From Paracoccaceae bacterium (GTDB lineage: Bacteria > Pseudomonadota > Alphaproteobacteria > Rhodobacterales > Rhodobacteraceae): 64,000 nt of DNA. Positions 10,050 to 61,389 of this stretch are shown piece after piece. Where the stretch lies: assembly GCA_014654775.1 (NCBI GenBank), contig JACVZW010000007.1:322580-386579 (forward strand), given 5' to 3'. The position numbers and the translations under genes were made by a program. Below the pieces are notes generated by a model, which was not told where the DNA came from, did not search any database, and worked only from the letters and a program-made list of their open reading frames with translations. Positions within the stretch are counted from its first letter, which is position 1; each line of letters starts with the position of its first letter.

Positions 10050-10203
10050 GGCGGCCTCCCTCAAAGCGTCCCCGGAAGGAAGCCTAGGGCAATGCGCCCT
10101 CAGGTCAACGACGACGCACCAAAGGCTGCGATGCGCCCTCTGTGCGCCTGCGCACCCTTAACCAATAAACCGCGCCGATCCCTGCCGAAATTTGTATGAA
10201 CAC

Positions 10204-10238
10204 TTTGCTGCACAAAAGGCGGCACAAAACAGGGCACA
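10204..10238 (-). repeat. TGTGCC 12-base-phased intergenic repeat, copy 1
   Basis: Read on the minus strand the element has TGTGCC at 12-base spacing (TGTGCCCTGTTT, TGTGCCGCCTTT, TGTGCAGCAAAG). It sits 47 bases past the lysK stop, on the lysK strand. Its 35-base core is identical to copy 2. Near copies occur at 40805 and 60415. No ORF of its own. Confidence 0.85.
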
Positions 10239-10284: not shown

Positions 10285-11862
10285 TTAAACCAACTCCCCC
10301 GCCAGCGCCCGATCCATCAGCGCCACCGTTTCCTTCACCCCGTAAAGCGCGACGAACCCGCCGAAACGCGGCCCCTCGCTCGCCCCCAGCAGCACCTCAT
10401 ACAGCGCCTTGAACCAGTCGCGCAGCGGCTCGAACCCGTGCTCCTTGCCCACGGCAAAAACCATGGATTGCAGCGCATCCGCATCCTGCCCGCCCTCCCA
10501 GGCAACCAGCCGCGCGCGCAGATCGGCCATCGCCGCCCGCTCCTTTTCGTCCGGCAGACGGAACACCCGATGGGGTGCGATCTTGTCGGCAAAGTAGCGC
10601 ACGGCAAAGCCGGCCGCAGCATCCAGATCGGGATGCGTCTCGGGCGATGCCTCCGGCGCATAGGCCCGGATATAGCCCCACAAGCCCTTGGAATCCTTGG
10701 CCCCCGCCACGCTGGCAAGGTTCAGAAGCATGCTGAACGGCACCACCATCCGGCTCTCTGGCGGGTTCCCGCCATGGATGTGCCAGACCGGGTTGTTCAC
10801 CTGTCCGTCCACATCCTGCGTGGGATAGGCCTTCAACTGCTGGTGATATTCATCCACCGCCCGCGGGATCACATCGAAATGCATCCGCTTCGCCGTCTTG
10901 GGCTTTTGATACATGAAATAAGACAGGCTTTCGGTGGCTGCATAGGTCAGCCATTCATCGATGGTCAGCCCGTTGCCCTTCGACTTCGAAATCTTCTGCC
11001 CCTGATCATCAAGGAACAGCTCATAGGTCATGTGATTGGGCTTCCGCCCCCCCAACACCTCGCAGATGCCGTCATAGATCGGCGTGTTGGTGGAATGGTC
11101 CTTCCCATACATCTCGAAATCCACATCCAGCGCCGCCCAGCGCGCCCCGAAATCCGGCTTCCACTGCAGCTTCACATGCCCGCCCGTCACCGGCAGCGTC
11201 CATTCCCGCCCGTCCTCGTCATCGAAGGTGATCTCGCCCCGCACCGCATCCACGTTCTTCATCGGGACGTACAGCACCCGCCCCGTTTCGGGATGAATCG
11301 GCAGGAAGCAGGAATAGGTCTGCTGCCGCTCCTCGCGCAAAGACGCCAGCATGATGTTCATGATCGCATCATAGCGTTCCGCCGCCCGCCGCAGCACCGC
11401 GTCGAACTGGCCCGATCCATAGAACTCGGTGGCCGAGATGAACTCGTATTCGAACCCGAAGGTATCCAGAAACCGCCGCAGCATCGCATTGTTGTGGTGG
11501 CCAAAGCTTTCGAATTCCCCATAGGGATCGGGCACGCTGGTCAACGGCTTCTGCATATGCCCGCGCAGCATCTCCTGCTGCGGCACGTTCTCCGGCACCT
11601 TCCGCATCCCGTCGAGGTCATCGGAAAAGCAGATCAGCCGCGTCGGAATGTCGGACACAATCTCAAAGGCGCGGCGGATCATCGTCGTCCGCGCCACCTC
11701 GCCAAAGGTCCCGATATGCGGCAGGCCCGACGGTCCATAACCCGTCTCGAACAGGACATGCCCCTTCTCCGGGTCCTTCTTCTCATAGCGTTTGAGGATC
11801 GCGCGCGCCTCTTCAAAGGGCCAGGCTTTCGATTTCATCGCGGCGTCACGCAGGGCAGACAT
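10285..11862 (-). CDS. lysK: Lysyl-tRNA synthetase, class I
   Basis: This 525-residue enzyme charges tRNA-Lys with lysine. It is the class I (archaeal-type) LysRS usual in alphaproteobacteria, not the class II lysS. The HIGH-type motif is PHIGTFG (H49-I-G-T52) and the KMSKS-type motif is KISKSKG at residues 290-296. The start is ATG 11862 with TGAGG upstream; a TTG two codons earlier is less likely. A stem (CGGGATCG/CGATCCCG, 10251-10279) and the TGTGCC repeat follow the stop. Confidence 0.96.
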
Positions 11863-17214: not shown

Positions 17215-17303
17215 GCCGATCTTTCGAAACGGTTAAGGCGGGGCCGCGACCCCGCCTTCACTGAGACGATTTCATTAAGTCACCGTTCGCTGCGTGCCCA
17301 CAG

Positions 17304-17338
17304 TTTGCTGCACAAAAGGCGGCACAAAACAGGGCACA
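17304..17338 (-). repeat. TGTGCC 12-base-phased intergenic repeat, copy 2
   Basis: On the minus strand TGTGCCCTGTTT, TGTGCCGCCTTT, TGTGCAGCAAAC, then TGTGGGCACGCAGCG, which extends the match with copy 3 to beyond 17285. It lies 69 bases past the DUF2892 stop on the same strand and about 90 bases before the RAYT start. Confidence 0.85.
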
Positions 17339-39789: not shown

Positions 39790-40797
39790 ATGGCCGAAAA
39801 CGTCAACATTTTCCTTCCCTCCCGCGCGCCACTGACCCTTGCTGTCTTGGTGCTGCCGCATGCCTCGATCCTTGAGGTGGCTTCGGTCCTTGATCCGATG
39901 CGGGCGGCGAACCGGCATCTGGGGGAAGAGGCCTATCGCTGGCGCGTGGTGTCGCCGGATGGGCGGCCTGTGCCGCTGACCTGCGGGATCGAACTGCCGT
40001 CGGCAGGGCCGCTCGCCTCGGCCGAAGGGGCGGATGTGCTGATGGTGATCGTGGGATACCGGCAGGCCGAGGTGGCGCGACCGCCGTTTCTGCAGGCTTT
40101 GCGGCGGATGGCACCGCGGTTCCGGCTGATCGCGGGGGTGGATGCGGGGGCTTGGGTCATGGCGCGGGCGGGGCTGTTGGATGGCTATCGCGCCACGGTC
40201 CACTGGGAAGATCTTGAGGATTTCGCCGCCGCCTTCCCCCAGATGGAGTGTCTGCCGGACCGCTATGTTATCGACCGGAACCGGGTGACGGTGGGGGGGG
40301 CGGCACCGGCGCAGGACCTGATGCTGCACCTGATCGCGGCGCGGCACGGGGCGCCCTTGGCGCGGCAGGTGGCGGCGTCGTTTTTGACCACGCAGCGCGC
40401 GGGGCATGAGCCGCAGGTGGCCCCGCCCCAGCGTGACCCGCGGCTGGACGGGCGGGTGGCCGAGGCCATCGCGCGAATGGAGGCGCGGATCGACGATCCC
40501 GAACCCATGGCGCGCATCGCACGGGCCGTGGGGTTAAGCCCGCGGCGCATGGAAAGCCTTTTTCTTCAGTATCTTGGCGAAAGCCCCGGCGCCTATGCCC
40601 TTGGCCTGCGGTTGCAGGCAGCGCGACGGATGGTGACGGATACGCGGCACCCTCTGGCGGAGGTGGCGCTGCGGACGGGGTTTTCCTCTCCCTCCACTCT
40701 GAGCCGGGCGTTCAGTCGGCGGTTCGGGGTGGCGCCGTCGGTCCTGCGACGGGGGCAAGTGCCTGCGAACGCTGCCTTTATTCCTGCCAAGGGCTGA
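39790..40797 (+). CDS. GlxA/CdhR-type AraC family regulator
   Basis: A 335-residue transcription factor. The N-terminal DJ-1/PfpI-like domain (LAVLVLPHASILEVASVLDP) has GVDAGAW where true amidotransferases keep a Cys, so it is a sensing domain. The C-terminal AraC domain has both helix-turn-helices (MARIARAVGLSPRRMESLF and LAEVALRTGFSSPSTLSRAF). It is transcribed divergently from the carnitine operon across 72 bases, as CdhR is in Pseudomonas, and most likely activates it in response to carnitine. ATG 39790 was chosen; an earlier in-frame start at 39730 is possible. Confidence 0.9.
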   Translation: MAENVNIFLPSRAPLTLAVLVLPHASILEVASVLDPMRAANRHLGEEAYRWRVVSPDGRPVPLTCGIELPSAGPLASAEGADVLMVIVGYRQAEVARPPFLQALRRMAPRFRLIAGVDAGAWVMARAGLLDGYRATVHWEDLEDFAAAFPQMECLPDRYVIDRNRVTVGGAAPAQDLMLHLIAARHGAPLARQVAASFLTTQRAGHEPQVAPPQRDPRLDGRVAEAIARMEARIDDPEPMARIARAVGLSPRRMESLFLQYLGESPGAYALGLRLQAARRMVTDTRHPLAEVALRTGFSSPSTLSRAFSRRFGVAPSVLRRGQVPANAAFIPAKG

Positions 40798-40804
40798 AAA
40801 CGGG

Positions 40805-40853
40805 TGTGCCCTGTTTTGTGCCGCCTTTTGTGCCGCAAACTGTGGGCACGCAG
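40805..40853 (+). repeat. TGTGCC 12-base-phased intergenic repeat, copy 3
   Basis: TGTGCCCTGTTT, TGTGCCGCCTTT, TGTGCCGCAAAC, TGTGGGCACGCA: four hexamers exactly 12 bases apart. It starts 8 bases after the regulator stop on the same strand. The left flank (GAACGCTGCCTTTA at 40769, GAAAACGG at 40796) also matches copy 4, and the right flank matches copy 2. Confidence 0.88.
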
Positions 40854-41027
40854 CGCACGGTGAGAAGCGGTTAACCAAGCTGGCAGAAAGGGCTAGGGAC
40901 GGGCCGGCTGCATACCCTTTCTTTACCCTTCGACCCGCATTCTGACGCGAGTGTTTGGTTCAGGTCCCCCTCGTAGACGGAGGTGCTGTGGAGGTGGTGA
41001 TTGAGTATTTGGGCCAAGGTGAAGGGG

Positions 41028-58877: not shown

Positions 58878-59342
58878 ATGACCGTCCTTAAACTGCTGTG
58901 GGAGGATTGGGCCGACCGAACGCTCGGCCTTCCGGCCTATGAGACGCCGGGATCGGCGGGGGCGGATATCCGGGCCAATCTGCTGCCCGGGGATCGCGAG
59001 GCCGGATTCACCTTGGCGCCGATGCAGCGGGCGGTGGTGCCGACGGGGTTGCGGGTGGAAATCCCGCCGGGGTTCGAGATGCAGATCCGGCCCCGGTCCG
59101 GGTTGGCGCTGAAGCATGGCATCACCCTGCCCAACACGCCGGGAACCATCGACAGCGATTATCGTGGCCCTTTGGGCGTGGCGCTGATCAATCTGGGGGC
59201 GGAGCCCTATACGATCCGGCATGGCGACCGCATCGCGCAAATGATCGTGGCCCCAGTGATTCAGGTGCAATTCCAAGAGGTTGAGACCCTGTCGGACACG
59301 GCGCGGGGCGTGGGCGGTTTTGGGTCGACGGGCAAAAGATGA
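58878..59342 (+). CDS. dut: dUTP diphosphatase
   Basis: A 154-residue trimeric dUTPase. All five motifs are present: [51 protein letters not shown] and [14 protein letters not shown] 58878 has AAGGGG upstream; TTG two codons earlier is less likely. It overlaps the ThiF-type gene by 4 bases. Confidence 0.97.
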
Positions 59343-60376
59343 TCCTTGTCCTTGCGATGGCGGGCGCGCTGTGGGGGATCGGGGCGCTGATGAAGGTCCC
59401 GGTGCGGCTGCGGCTGGGGATGATCCTGATGCTGTGGCTGGGCGTGGTGGGGCTGCATCTGCTGCTGCCGGACGGGCATCCGCTGCGCGTCTCGACCGGG
59501 GGCGAGGCGCGGGTCTGGCTGGCCTTGGGCGTGGTGGCGGGGATTGTGTTGGGCTATCGCGGGCTGGTGTCCCGGCTGCGCGCCAAGGCGGCACCGACGA
59601 AGGTGCCCGCGCCTTCGGGGGCCTTCCGTCCGGCCGAGCTGGACCGCTATGCGCGGCACATCATCCTGCGCGAGATTGGCGGGCCGGGGCAGAGAAAGCT
59701 GAAGGATTCCAAAGTTTTGGTCATTGGCGCAGGGGGCCTTGGATCGCCTGCGCTGATGTATCTGGCGGGGGCGGGGGTGGGCGTTCTTGGCCTTGTCGAT
59801 GATGACATGGTGGATGGGTCGAACCTGCAGCGGCAGATCATCCATGCCGATGCGCGGATCGGGATGCCCAAGGTCTTTTCCGCCGAGATCGCGCTGCGCG
59901 CCATCAACCCTTTCATCGAGATCCGCCCCTATAGGCGGCGGCTGGATCAGGAGACGGCGCGCGCTCTGTTTGCCGATTATGACCTGATCCTTGACGGGAC
60001 GGACAATTTCGACACGCGCTACATGGTCAACCGCGTGGCGGTGGAGATGGGTAAGCCCCTGATTTCAGGGGCGATCACGCAATGGGAGGGGCAGGTGTCG
60101 CTGTTTCATCCCGCGCAGGGCGGGCCCTGTTATGAATGCGTCTTTCCCACCCGCCCGGCCCCCGGCATGGTGCCAAGCTGCGCCGAGGCGGGGGTGGCGG
60201 CGCCGCTGCCCGGGGTGATCGGGTCGATCATGGCGATGGAGGCGGTGAAGCAGATCACCGGGGCGGGCGAGACGCTAAAGGGCCGATTGATGATCCATGA
60301 CGCGCTTTTTGCCGAGACGCGGGTGATTTCGGTCAAGCGCCGGGCCGACTGCCCGGCCTGCGGCGCAAGCACCTGA
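59339..60376 (+). CDS. Membrane-anchored HesA/MoeB/ThiF family adenylyltransferase
   Basis: A 345-residue E1-like enzyme. The first 80 residues hold two or three hydrophobic segments ([53 protein letters not shown]). The ThiF/MoeB domain follows: [51 protein letters not shown], with zinc cysteines in CYECVFP and CPACGAS. It adenylates a ubiquitin-like sulfur carrier (MoaD or ThiS), but neither is encoded here. The membrane part is unusual compared with soluble MoeB. It overlaps dut (ATGA). Confidence 0.88.
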
Positions 60377-60414: not shown

Positions 60415-60463
60415 TGTGCCCTGTTCTGTGCCGCCTTTTGTGCAGCAAACTGTGGCCACGCAC
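60415..60463 (+). repeat. TGTGCC 12-base-phased intergenic repeat, copy 4
   Basis: TGTGCCCTGTTC, TGTGCCGCCTTT, TGTGCAGCAAAC, TGTGGCCACGCA. It starts 39 bases after the ThiF-type gene stop on the same strand. The left flank GAACGCTGCATTTA (60378) and GAAAACGG (60406) match copy 3. ATTTAACCATC follows at 60479, similar to a CtrA half-site (TTAACCAT). Confidence 0.85.
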
Positions 60464-60585: not shown

Positions 60586-61389
60586 ATGACGCTGACTGCA
60601 TGGGCCACCGGAGTGACGAGCGCCCTGACGCTGACCCTTGGCCTGACCGCCACCGCCTTTGCGCAGGACGTGCCCGATCTGGGCGGGCGCGAGGTTGTGG
60701 TGGTGACCGAGAACGCCTATCCGCCGCTGCAATTCCTCGACAAGGACGGCAATGCGATCGGCTGGGAATATGATGCCATGGCCGAGATCGCCAAGCGGCT
60801 GAACATCACCGTCAAGTACGAGAACATCTCGTGGGATGCGATGATCCCGGCAGTGTCGGAAGGCCAGTTCGACCTTGGCATGACCGGCATCACGATCCGT
60901 GACGACCGCAAGGACAAGGTGGATTTCTCGGACGCCTATATGCGGTCGGAAATGCTGATGATGGTGCGGGGCGATGAGGAGCGGTTCACCGACGCGGCCT
61001 CTTTCGCGGCCAATGCCGATCTTCTGATGGCGGCGCAGCCGGGCACGACGCCCTTCTATGTGGGCGTCTATGAGGTGCTGGACGGCAACGAGGAAAACCC
61101 GCGCATCGTGAAGTTCGAAACCTTTGGCGCGGGGCTTGAGGCGCTGCGCGCGGGCGACGTGGATCTTGTCCTGTCCGACAGCACGGCGGCGAACGGCTAT
61201 GTGTCGGCCTCGGACGGCGGGCTGAAGATCATCGGCGAAGCGCTGGGGGCCGAGGATTTCGGCTTCATCTTCCCCAAGGGGTCCGACCTTGTCGCGCCGA
61301 TCAACGCGGCGATTGCCAGCATGAAGGCGGATGGCACGCTGGACGCGCTGAACACCAAGTGGTTCCTTGAATACAAGATGGGCGAATGA
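60586..61389 (+). CDS. Amino-acid ABC transporter substrate-binding protein (family 3)
   Basis: A 267-residue periplasmic binding protein for a polar solute, probably an amino acid. Signal with cleavage at [11 protein letters not shown]_bac_3 marks: [67 protein letters not shown] precedes ATG 60586. A strong hairpin terminator lies between it and the permease gene, so more binding protein than permease is expected. Confidence 0.92.

Follow-up and report, generated by a model that had tools for sequence, protein, structure and literature searches.

Intergenic DNA of the genome under study carries a long, polar array of four 12-bp units, dispersed in about a hundred copies, whose strand follows the GC skew of the DNA around it. 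With the array itself excluded, its strand agrees with the skew of the 2.7-kb flank at 92 of 93 copies in G000, the genome holding the analysed stretch (4.52 Mb, 93 contigs), at 31 of 32 in G009 and at 26 of 31 in G002, the last two counts being made on copies from 30 fetched loci each. Four of the copies lie in the window, the whole 64,000-nucleotide stretch that was analysed. The likeliest reading of the comparative sequence evidence, and still a tentative one, is that the array is a polar chromosomal site: a putative head-to-tail protein array that would be read along replication or DNA translocation. A sequence-only reading of the window had offered cooperative protein binding or a repeated RNA motif in 3′ UTRs; the former is partly supported, the latter is not, and the lock to local GC skew, the strongest property of the element, lay beyond its view.

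All four copies recognised at the outset are present, two on the + strand, beginning at 40805 and 60415, and two on the − strand, for which the positions originally given, 10238 and 17338, are the 5′ ends. The window contains five TGTGCC-N6-TGTGCC matches, against a mean of 0.02 in 100 shuffles. Each array consists of four 12-bp units (TGTGCM plus 6 bp) followed by a tail of type A or B; units 1 and 2 are TGTGCC with a linker, unit 3 is TGTGCM with a linker that is mostly GCAAAC or GCAAAG, and unit 4 leads into the tail. Unit 4 had been described as TGTGGS throughout, but the 10238 copy carries TGTTCATACAAA instead, so that two tail types are distinguished, A (TGTGGSCACGCA) and B (TGTACATACAAA-like). 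Type A is TGTGGSCACGCA-like and often continues as GCGCRCGGTG, with GTTAAGGTTAAC in some copies, and type B has the form TGTACATACAAATTTGG...TGGTTAAGGGTGCG-N4-GCACAG-like. Sequence information extends from about −7 to +58 in type A and to about +95 in type B. The element had been drawn from 40762, but the copy consensus places the opening of the conserved part about 7 bases before 40805.

Copy 3 (40805..40852, + strand, type A), with units TGTGCCCTGTTT, TGTGCCGCCTTT, TGTGCCGCAAAC and TGTGGGCACGCA, opens 7 bases past the stop of an AraC/DJ-1-like gene (39790-40797), and its tail (40853..40876, +) comprises GCGCACGGTG at 40853-40862 and GGTTAACC at 40869-40876. Copy 4 (60415..60462, + strand, type A) is built from TGTGCCCTGTTC, TGTGCCGCCTTT, TGTGCAGCAAAC and TGTGGCCACGCA and lies between a ThiF-like gene (59339-60376) and a solute-binding protein gene (60613-61389). 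Copy 2 (17291..17338, − strand, type A) reads TGTGCCCTGTTT, TGTGCCGCCTTT, TGTGCAGCAAAC and TGTGGGCACGCA on the − strand, followed by the tail GCGAACGGTG (17281..17290, −). Copy 1 (10191..10238, − strand, type B) sits after the lysyl-tRNA synthetase gene lysK (10285-11862) and reads TGTGCCCTGTTT, TGTGCCGCCTTT, TGTGCAGCAAAG and TGTTCATACAAA on the − strand, with the tail TGGTTAAGGGTGCG-N4-CGCACAG at 10140..10164 (−).

A search of the whole G000 genome returned 86 strict TGTGCC-N6-TGTGCC-N6-TGTGC matches, a few of which are 12-bp shifts inside one array, and none for the reversed-pattern control; four TGTG at 12 bp with at most one mismatch gave 103 matches, again with none in the control. After duplicates were merged, 94 unique G000 copies were analysed: the placement and local-skew counts (90, 93 and 94 G000 copies) are deduplicated, and tallies over 97-98 G000 rows include four G000, two G002 and two G009 copies entered twice. 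The 12-bp phase is kept by copies outside the window and holds in five species. In four stretches of 400-446 kb, scores of at least 17 of 21 at period 12 occur at 35 (G000), 28 (G009), 19 (G006) and 11 (G007) positions, and periods 10, 11, 13 and 14 yield at most two such positions per stretch and period. These stretches contain 14 array rows in G000, 11 in G009, 11 in G006 and 8 in G007, from which two weak rows were later excluded (G007 118472, an opposite-strand shadow, and G006 210402, inside a gene).

The strict pattern is present in 8 of the 101 genomes searched, G000 included. A looser pattern of three TGTGCM units with one mismatch, run on 61 genomes with shifted matches within one array counted separately, gave 138 matches in G000, 139 in G002, 165 in G009, 64 in G012, 62 in G006, 31 in G018 and 29 in G007; G017 has 11, a count that includes simple TG repeats, which fired a control too, G005 has 7, G001 has 6 and the remaining nine genus members have 0-3. 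Beyond the genus, there are 0-1 matches in each of 18 family genera and 0-2 in each of 24 class genomes, with 0-1 in the control. Species counts and positions are not independent observations, because positions are shared by descent. A wider contig scan returned at least 115 stretches from taxa that are scattered by title, including two of Tabrizicola sp. TH137, a Limimaricola and an uncultured Rhodobacteraceae. Some arrays are doubled: tandem pairs 115-117 bp apart occur in G000 at C7:87863/87978, C13:82722/82838, C58:70349/70466 and C73:92440/92557, pairs 115-137 bp apart occur in G002 and G009 as well, and the doubled site may have its own meaning. In a genome of another genus (G197, L322 around 1500), three TGTGCCACA units at 12 bp are followed by an inverted copy (TTGTGGCACAAAA) in intergenic DNA, which is either a lone relative or a look-alike.

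The element belongs to no named repeat family that Rfam, run on the window, or the literature searched would supply. At gathering scores Rfam has no match in the window, and the literature searched, which leaves most subscription journals outside its coverage, gave no description of a Rhodobacteraceae intergenic repeat of this kind, of leading-strand-biased dispersed repeats in Rhodobacter or of concerted evolution of interspersed bacterial repeats; nor was a description of the array noticed there under Tabrizicola genome repeats or TGTGCCG in Rhodobacter. REP/BIME elements have many intergenic copies, prefer gene 3′ ends and carry a palindrome able to form a hairpin. The arrays are likewise numerous, intergenic and at gene 3′ ends, but they are strictly polar and orthologously placed, with species-specific linkers. 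No inverted repeat common to all four window copies was found, and none of the 11 predicted pairs in a 14-sequence alignment has compensatory changes. DnaA boxes read TTATNCACA or, on the opposite strand, TGTGNATAA. Units 1-3 depart from this, and unit 4 is TGTGCATAC, one base off, in 3 of 98 G000 rows. The CtrA site is TTAA-N7-TTAA, and the tail carries GTTAAGGTTAAC, with a spacing of 2, in some copies. The arrays match neither a DnaA box cluster nor a CtrA site.

The lock to skew is maintained irrespective of the neighbouring genes. In G000 it holds at 36 of 37 copies between convergent genes and at all 21 copies antisense to both neighbours, and gene strand itself matches skew in only 229 of 426 G000 genes. 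A single place accounts for the G000 misfit (L092), the G009 misfit (L143) and one of the five G002 misfits (L121). In the 400-446-kb stretches all 42 arrays follow skew (14, 11, 10 and 7; these are partly copies counted above). At fourfold sites in G000, GC skew is +0.37 where a gene points the same way as its nearest array and −0.265 where it points the other way, whereas TA skew is 0.295 and 0.296, respectively. The fourfold GC effect is the same in other genomes and TA values are mixed; a TA skew without consistent effect across genomes makes cytosine deamination alone an unlikely cause.

Agreement with the replichore is looser. On the G002 chromosome, with replichores set from 20 skew samples, the orientation of 57 of the 75 sites agrees with the replichore (p 7e-6) and that of the other 18 opposes it; a two-breakpoint strand test gave 43, against a null mean of 31 and a largest value of 49 in 300 shuffles. 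Nine of the opposing sites fall in fetched loci. Seven of them (322531, 337153, 382196, 740528, 1007858, 1436680 and 1456810) lie in local skew of their own sign, and at the other two (571445 and 1105652) local skew is also contrary. As these opposing sites show, array strand is locked to local skew and not strictly to replication. On contig C1 of G002, skew switches at about 0.9 and 2.25 Mb split the chromosome (3.9 Mb) into unequal parts; the origin-like one is about 0.5 Mb from the best DnaA match, at 2.754 Mb.

The arrays are also spaced more evenly than random placement predicts, with a mean gap of about 39-52 kb. For the 75 places on the G002 chromosome the coefficient of variation of the gaps is 0.665, against 0.979 ± 0.109 (p 0.0002). 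For 53 gaps on 10 contigs of G000 it is 0.605, against 0.882 ± 0.099, a value reached in 0 of 5000 shuffles, and gaps below 10 kb number 3 where 11.4 are expected. Since positions are shared, G000 and G002 do not provide two independent tests.

Positions persist between species. When the 97 G000 copies were compared with one 400-kb stretch per genome, with both flanks mapping side by side and presence defined as an array on the same strand scoring at least 16 of 21, an array was found at 10 of 10 mapped places in G009, 5 of 5 in G007 and 6 of 9 in G006. All four window copies are among the G009 orthologous cases; copies 3 and 4 have an orthologous array there, and for copy 2 the aligned G009 interval holds an array on the same strand. 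Gain or loss also occurs: the lysK place of copy 1 bears an array in G000, G002 and G009, but none lies within 260 bases after the gene in G006, whose LysK has 97% identity, and 12 further genus members (G004 left out), so that this site is dispensable. An array does lie about 2.5 kb upstream of lysK in G006, on the same strand (C15:37617-37646, −), and skew in the lysK region of G006 resembles that of G000, G002 and G009.

At orthologous places the units are kept and the linkers are rewritten. Across 42 G000-G009 pairs, identity is 0.96 in the hexamers, 0.42 in linker 1, 0.57 in linker 2 and 0.83 in linker 3, with flanks about 0.8 identical in gapped alignments that have a random baseline of 0.73; the pairs were picked through their arrays, which makes the hexamer value partly a matter of row choice, a bias from which the flank-mapped orthology test is free. 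Orthologous G000-G009 linkers 1 and 2 differ by 0.58 and 0.43, compared with 0.62 and 0.41 for random between-genome pairs, and within-genome pairs are more alike (0.34-0.47 for linker 1, 0.33-0.35 for linker 2); the corresponding comparison for G006 and G007 rests on 4-7 pairs. Two observations fit this pattern less well: linker 1 is less alike within G000 (0.34) than between G000 and G002 (0.25), and orthologous copies resemble each other more than random ones do in linker 3 (G000-G009 and G000-G002) and in the unit 4 tail. Linker words 1 and 2 are characteristic of each species. Linker 1 is CTGTTT in 53, CTGTTC in 13 and GGATGT in 13 of the 98 G000 rows, and CTGTTT fills this position in 28 of 33 G002 rows and 0 of 34 G009 rows. 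Only 6 of the 98 G000 rows lie 2-3 changes from CTGTTT, compared with 22 at 4-6 changes, and with so few intermediates the variants look like the product of word copying more than of stepwise mutation. Hexamers and phase that are kept at orthologous sites while linkers turn over suggest selection. The idea of a protein-binding array is supported indirectly by this persistence while linkers 1 and 2 turn over, the binding itself being putative. Twelve bp is not one helical turn, and a rotation of roughly 50 degrees would separate each unit from the next.

Skew around the arrays is organised in domains, its sign changing every 50-260 kb or so in G000 and G009. In four stretches, cumulative skew has eight origin-like minima, each with an array at a distance of 0.9-7 kb (p about 0.007; the shifted-position null has a median of 12 kb; one of the eight is the same place in G000 and G009), whereas its seven terminus-like maxima all lie 10-55 kb from arrays (p about 0.04); across thresholds from 300 to 1200, p is 0.006-0.018 for minima and 0.017-0.048 for maxima. 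Over 2-24 kb, skew is higher downstream than upstream, with a mean difference of 0.0625 (26 of 38 positive; null 0.0026 ± 0.0155). Closer in, within 1.4 kb, the difference is reversed: G000 has 0.166 upstream and 0.139 downstream, and G002 and G009 differ in the same direction, which argues against a step located right at the array. Absolute skew close to arrays and away from them is 0.128 and 0.101 in G000, 0.144 and 0.140 in G009, 0.113 and 0.093 in G006 and 0.098 and 0.091 in G007; being scarcely raised near arrays, it speaks against a local cause. In G000, skew at arrays exceeds a locally oriented null by a modest amount (0.147 against 0.108 ± 0.017). A classical bidirectional origin at each array is unlikely, as averaged skew has no jump and builds over about 20 kb upstream.

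A comparison with the array-poor genome G008 bears on the origin of these domains. Of 20 G008 samples over 385 kb, 19 have positive skew and one has −0.008; in the G008 stretch matching the window, skew is negative in 14 of 14 consecutive 5-kb pieces. Orthologs from window 5.0-40.8 kb are collinear with G008, as are those from G000 404-421 kb; the interval between them is shuffled and partly inverted. In the collinear, uninverted block at G000 344-363 kb, skew is −0.09 to +0.03, against −0.14 to −0.20 in G008, and at 404-414 kb G000 has +0.01 to +0.07 where G008 has about −0.01 to −0.05. For Rhodobacterales, local peaks of extreme GC skew have been reported and attributed to codon choice, with inversions discussed (PMC9836097); the accessible part of that article describes no oriented dispersed element tied to its skew peaks.

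The alternative that survives best, though we think it unlikely, is that the arrays are passengers: copies of a MITE- or REP-like mobile element, inserted once with a strict strand preference and now functionless. Single-strand-targeting transposons insert into the lagging-strand template, and if later inversions moved the element and the old skew together, the lock would be a fossil. The lysK place, filled in three species but not in G006 or 12 further members of the genus, is as such a model would have it, as are the preference for gene 3′ ends, the avoidance of divergent spacers, the gene-order breaks against G008 next to two of the four copies in the window and an absolute skew that is barely raised near arrays. 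The even spacing speaks against it, as does the proximity of skew minima, but not of maxima, to arrays. The persistence of hexamers and phase at orthologous sites while linkers change suggests selection, and the collinear, uninverted blocks at G000 344-363 kb and 404-414 kb differ in skew from G008, which argues against a pure inversion-passenger account within that one comparison (G000-G008).

A bolder reading turns the relation round, and we regard it as improbable: the arrays would be start sites of one-way DNA processing that extends over tens of kilobases on their downstream side and imposes its own strand bias. The candidates would be nick- or break-primed synthesis, transfer, resection or translocation. 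The chromosome would then be split into polar domains by arrays and not by a single replication origin alone, and breaks or nicks at arrays would also account for short-tract homogenisation of linkers. The minima near arrays, the maxima far from them, the downstream excess of skew and the collinear blocks that differ from G008 support this reading. It is weakened by the absolute skew, which is hardly higher near arrays, and by the higher upstream value within 1.4 kb.

Quite unlikely is a role as a DNA exchange tag, either a competence uptake sequence or a packaging start of a gene transfer agent (GTA), with exchange spreading linker dialects. DNA uptake sequences are short and occur about once per kb. 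Those of Neisseria show dialects, the motif changing in concert at conserved places per species, and array linkers do likewise; CTGTTT, in 53 of 98 G000, 28 of 33 G002 and 0 of 34 G009 rows, has the word-like spread that exchange would produce, import of one strand could yield a strand bias, and the marker GTA_TIM is found in 18 of 19 genus genomes. An array every 39-52 kb or so is, however, sparse for an uptake tag, exchange does not itself account for the replichore bias of G002, and we know of no skew lock of DNA uptake sequences. The GTA marker turns up both in array-bearing genomes and in genomes that lack arrays, and the match is only partial in G002 and G007, which are array-bearing. 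GTA gene presence is thus rejected as the driver, since the marker does not track array abundance. The matches in G002, G007, G017 and one of four in G014 cover profile positions 204-299 only, and may represent a split or divergent GTA gene.

Gene context, taken from our own gene calls, argues against regulation of the neighbouring genes. The 94 unique G000 copies comprise 37 in convergent, 44 in tandem and 9 in divergent spacers, 2 in a called gene and 2 at stretch ends; of the 90 with a called gene on both sides, 23 are sense and 21 antisense to both neighbours, 37 convergent and 9 divergent. Among the 172 spacers of at least 100 bp in the G000 446-kb stretch, 95 are tandem, 56 divergent and 21 convergent; arrays thus favour convergent spacers and avoid divergent ones. 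They are intergenic, mostly at gene 3′ ends, and prefer no transcribed strand. The suggestion of an RNA motif in 3′ UTRs is not supported, given this neutrality (23 sense against 21 antisense), the missing covariation and the Rfam null in the window; an RNA element or terminator is rejected on these grounds. A transcription-factor operator or terminator-type element governing adjacent genes is very doubtful. It would suit head-to-tail half-sites repeated in intergenic DNA, and the upstream gene reading toward the array has its stop within 62 bases in 49 of 64 G000 rows (duplicates included); yet divergent spacers are the rarest (9 of 90, against 56 of 172 spacers of at least 100 bp), no transcribed strand is preferred, the copies have no hairpin in common, and regulation does not predict the skew lock.

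An att-like recombination arm site of DUF6538 tyrosine integrases has next to no probability. In another genus (G031, L325 1501-1530) two divergent genes for such integrases do flank a TGTGC array with 12-bp phase, but the idea is not supported in this genus, as PF20172 was not found in G006, G007 and G018, all with arrays, and the 22 DUF6538 places in the genus (flanks up to 1.5 kb) have weak matches at 3, with at most two mismatches and none equal to the consensus. A phage origin is rejected: among the viral-contig matches listed, most are coding-like repeats or a different TGTGCAGGG / TGTGCGG motif. Viral contigs L444 (4319), L452 (970, −) and L466 (1264) carry TGTGCAGGG or TGTGCGGCATCG arrays with 12-bp phase near genes that look primase- or helicase-like by eye; theirs is a different motif, possibly a phage replication or packaging site.

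We return to the polar chromosomal site as the preferred reading. The hexamers kept at a fixed phase, the places kept between species and the strictness of direction would together point to a protein array that is read one way by some chromosome-wide process. An oligomeric DNA-binding protein, itself putative, would cover the array head to tail and so give the bound site a direction, which a process moving along the chromosome, such as a replication fork, a DNA translocase or the recombination/resection machinery, may read. The array would then be an oriented signpost in the manner of KOPS, Chi or AIMS, useful only in the orientation set by the fork or translocase; selection on that process would maintain its position, phase and direction, and copying between sites, by gene conversion or DNA transfer, would spread linker variants. 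Among candidate processes, a replication-linked signpost is favoured over a recombination start, an exchange tag or a skew-making start. The signpost reading is weakened by the 18 of 75 G002 sites that oppose the replichore, by the 5 of 31 that oppose even local skew, by an absolute skew that is barely raised near arrays and by the dispensable lysK site.

None of the known oriented sites compared here matches the array in form. KOPS are oriented octamers, dense, leading-strand biased and enriched toward dif, that direct the translocase FtsK; the array resembles them in an orientation biased with replication (57 of 75 in G002), but measures about 48-60 bp, has four 12-bp units and, at about 100 per genome, is spread over the chromosome. 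Chi sites, octamers in E. coli, switch RecBCD/AddAB to recombination and act as polar, species-specific hotspots with a leading-strand bias; they are much denser than the arrays, which are sparse, intergenic and longer. The polar fork barrier Ter/Tus has few sites that trap forks around the terminus, whereas arrays occur all over the G002 chromosome, on both arms. AIMS are strand-biased octamers and denser than the present arrays. These Architecture IMparting Sequences have been proposed, in the accessible part of the source, as 8-bp elements that give bacterial chromosomes functional architecture (PMC5993296). In the arrays the information spans about 55-100 bp, and the sites are sparse, evenly spaced and tied to local skew switches.

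The usual picture of an oriented chromosomal signpost is of a short sequence that occurs densely; the present array is long, sparse and evenly spaced. It keeps its place and phase across species despite rewritten linkers, and its direction nearly always fits the strand composition of its surroundings, at several sites in opposition to the replichore. Should the arrays set or record a one-way process, they would offer a handle on the local GC-skew domains of these Rhodobacterales and on the concerted evolution of dispersed 50-bp sites.
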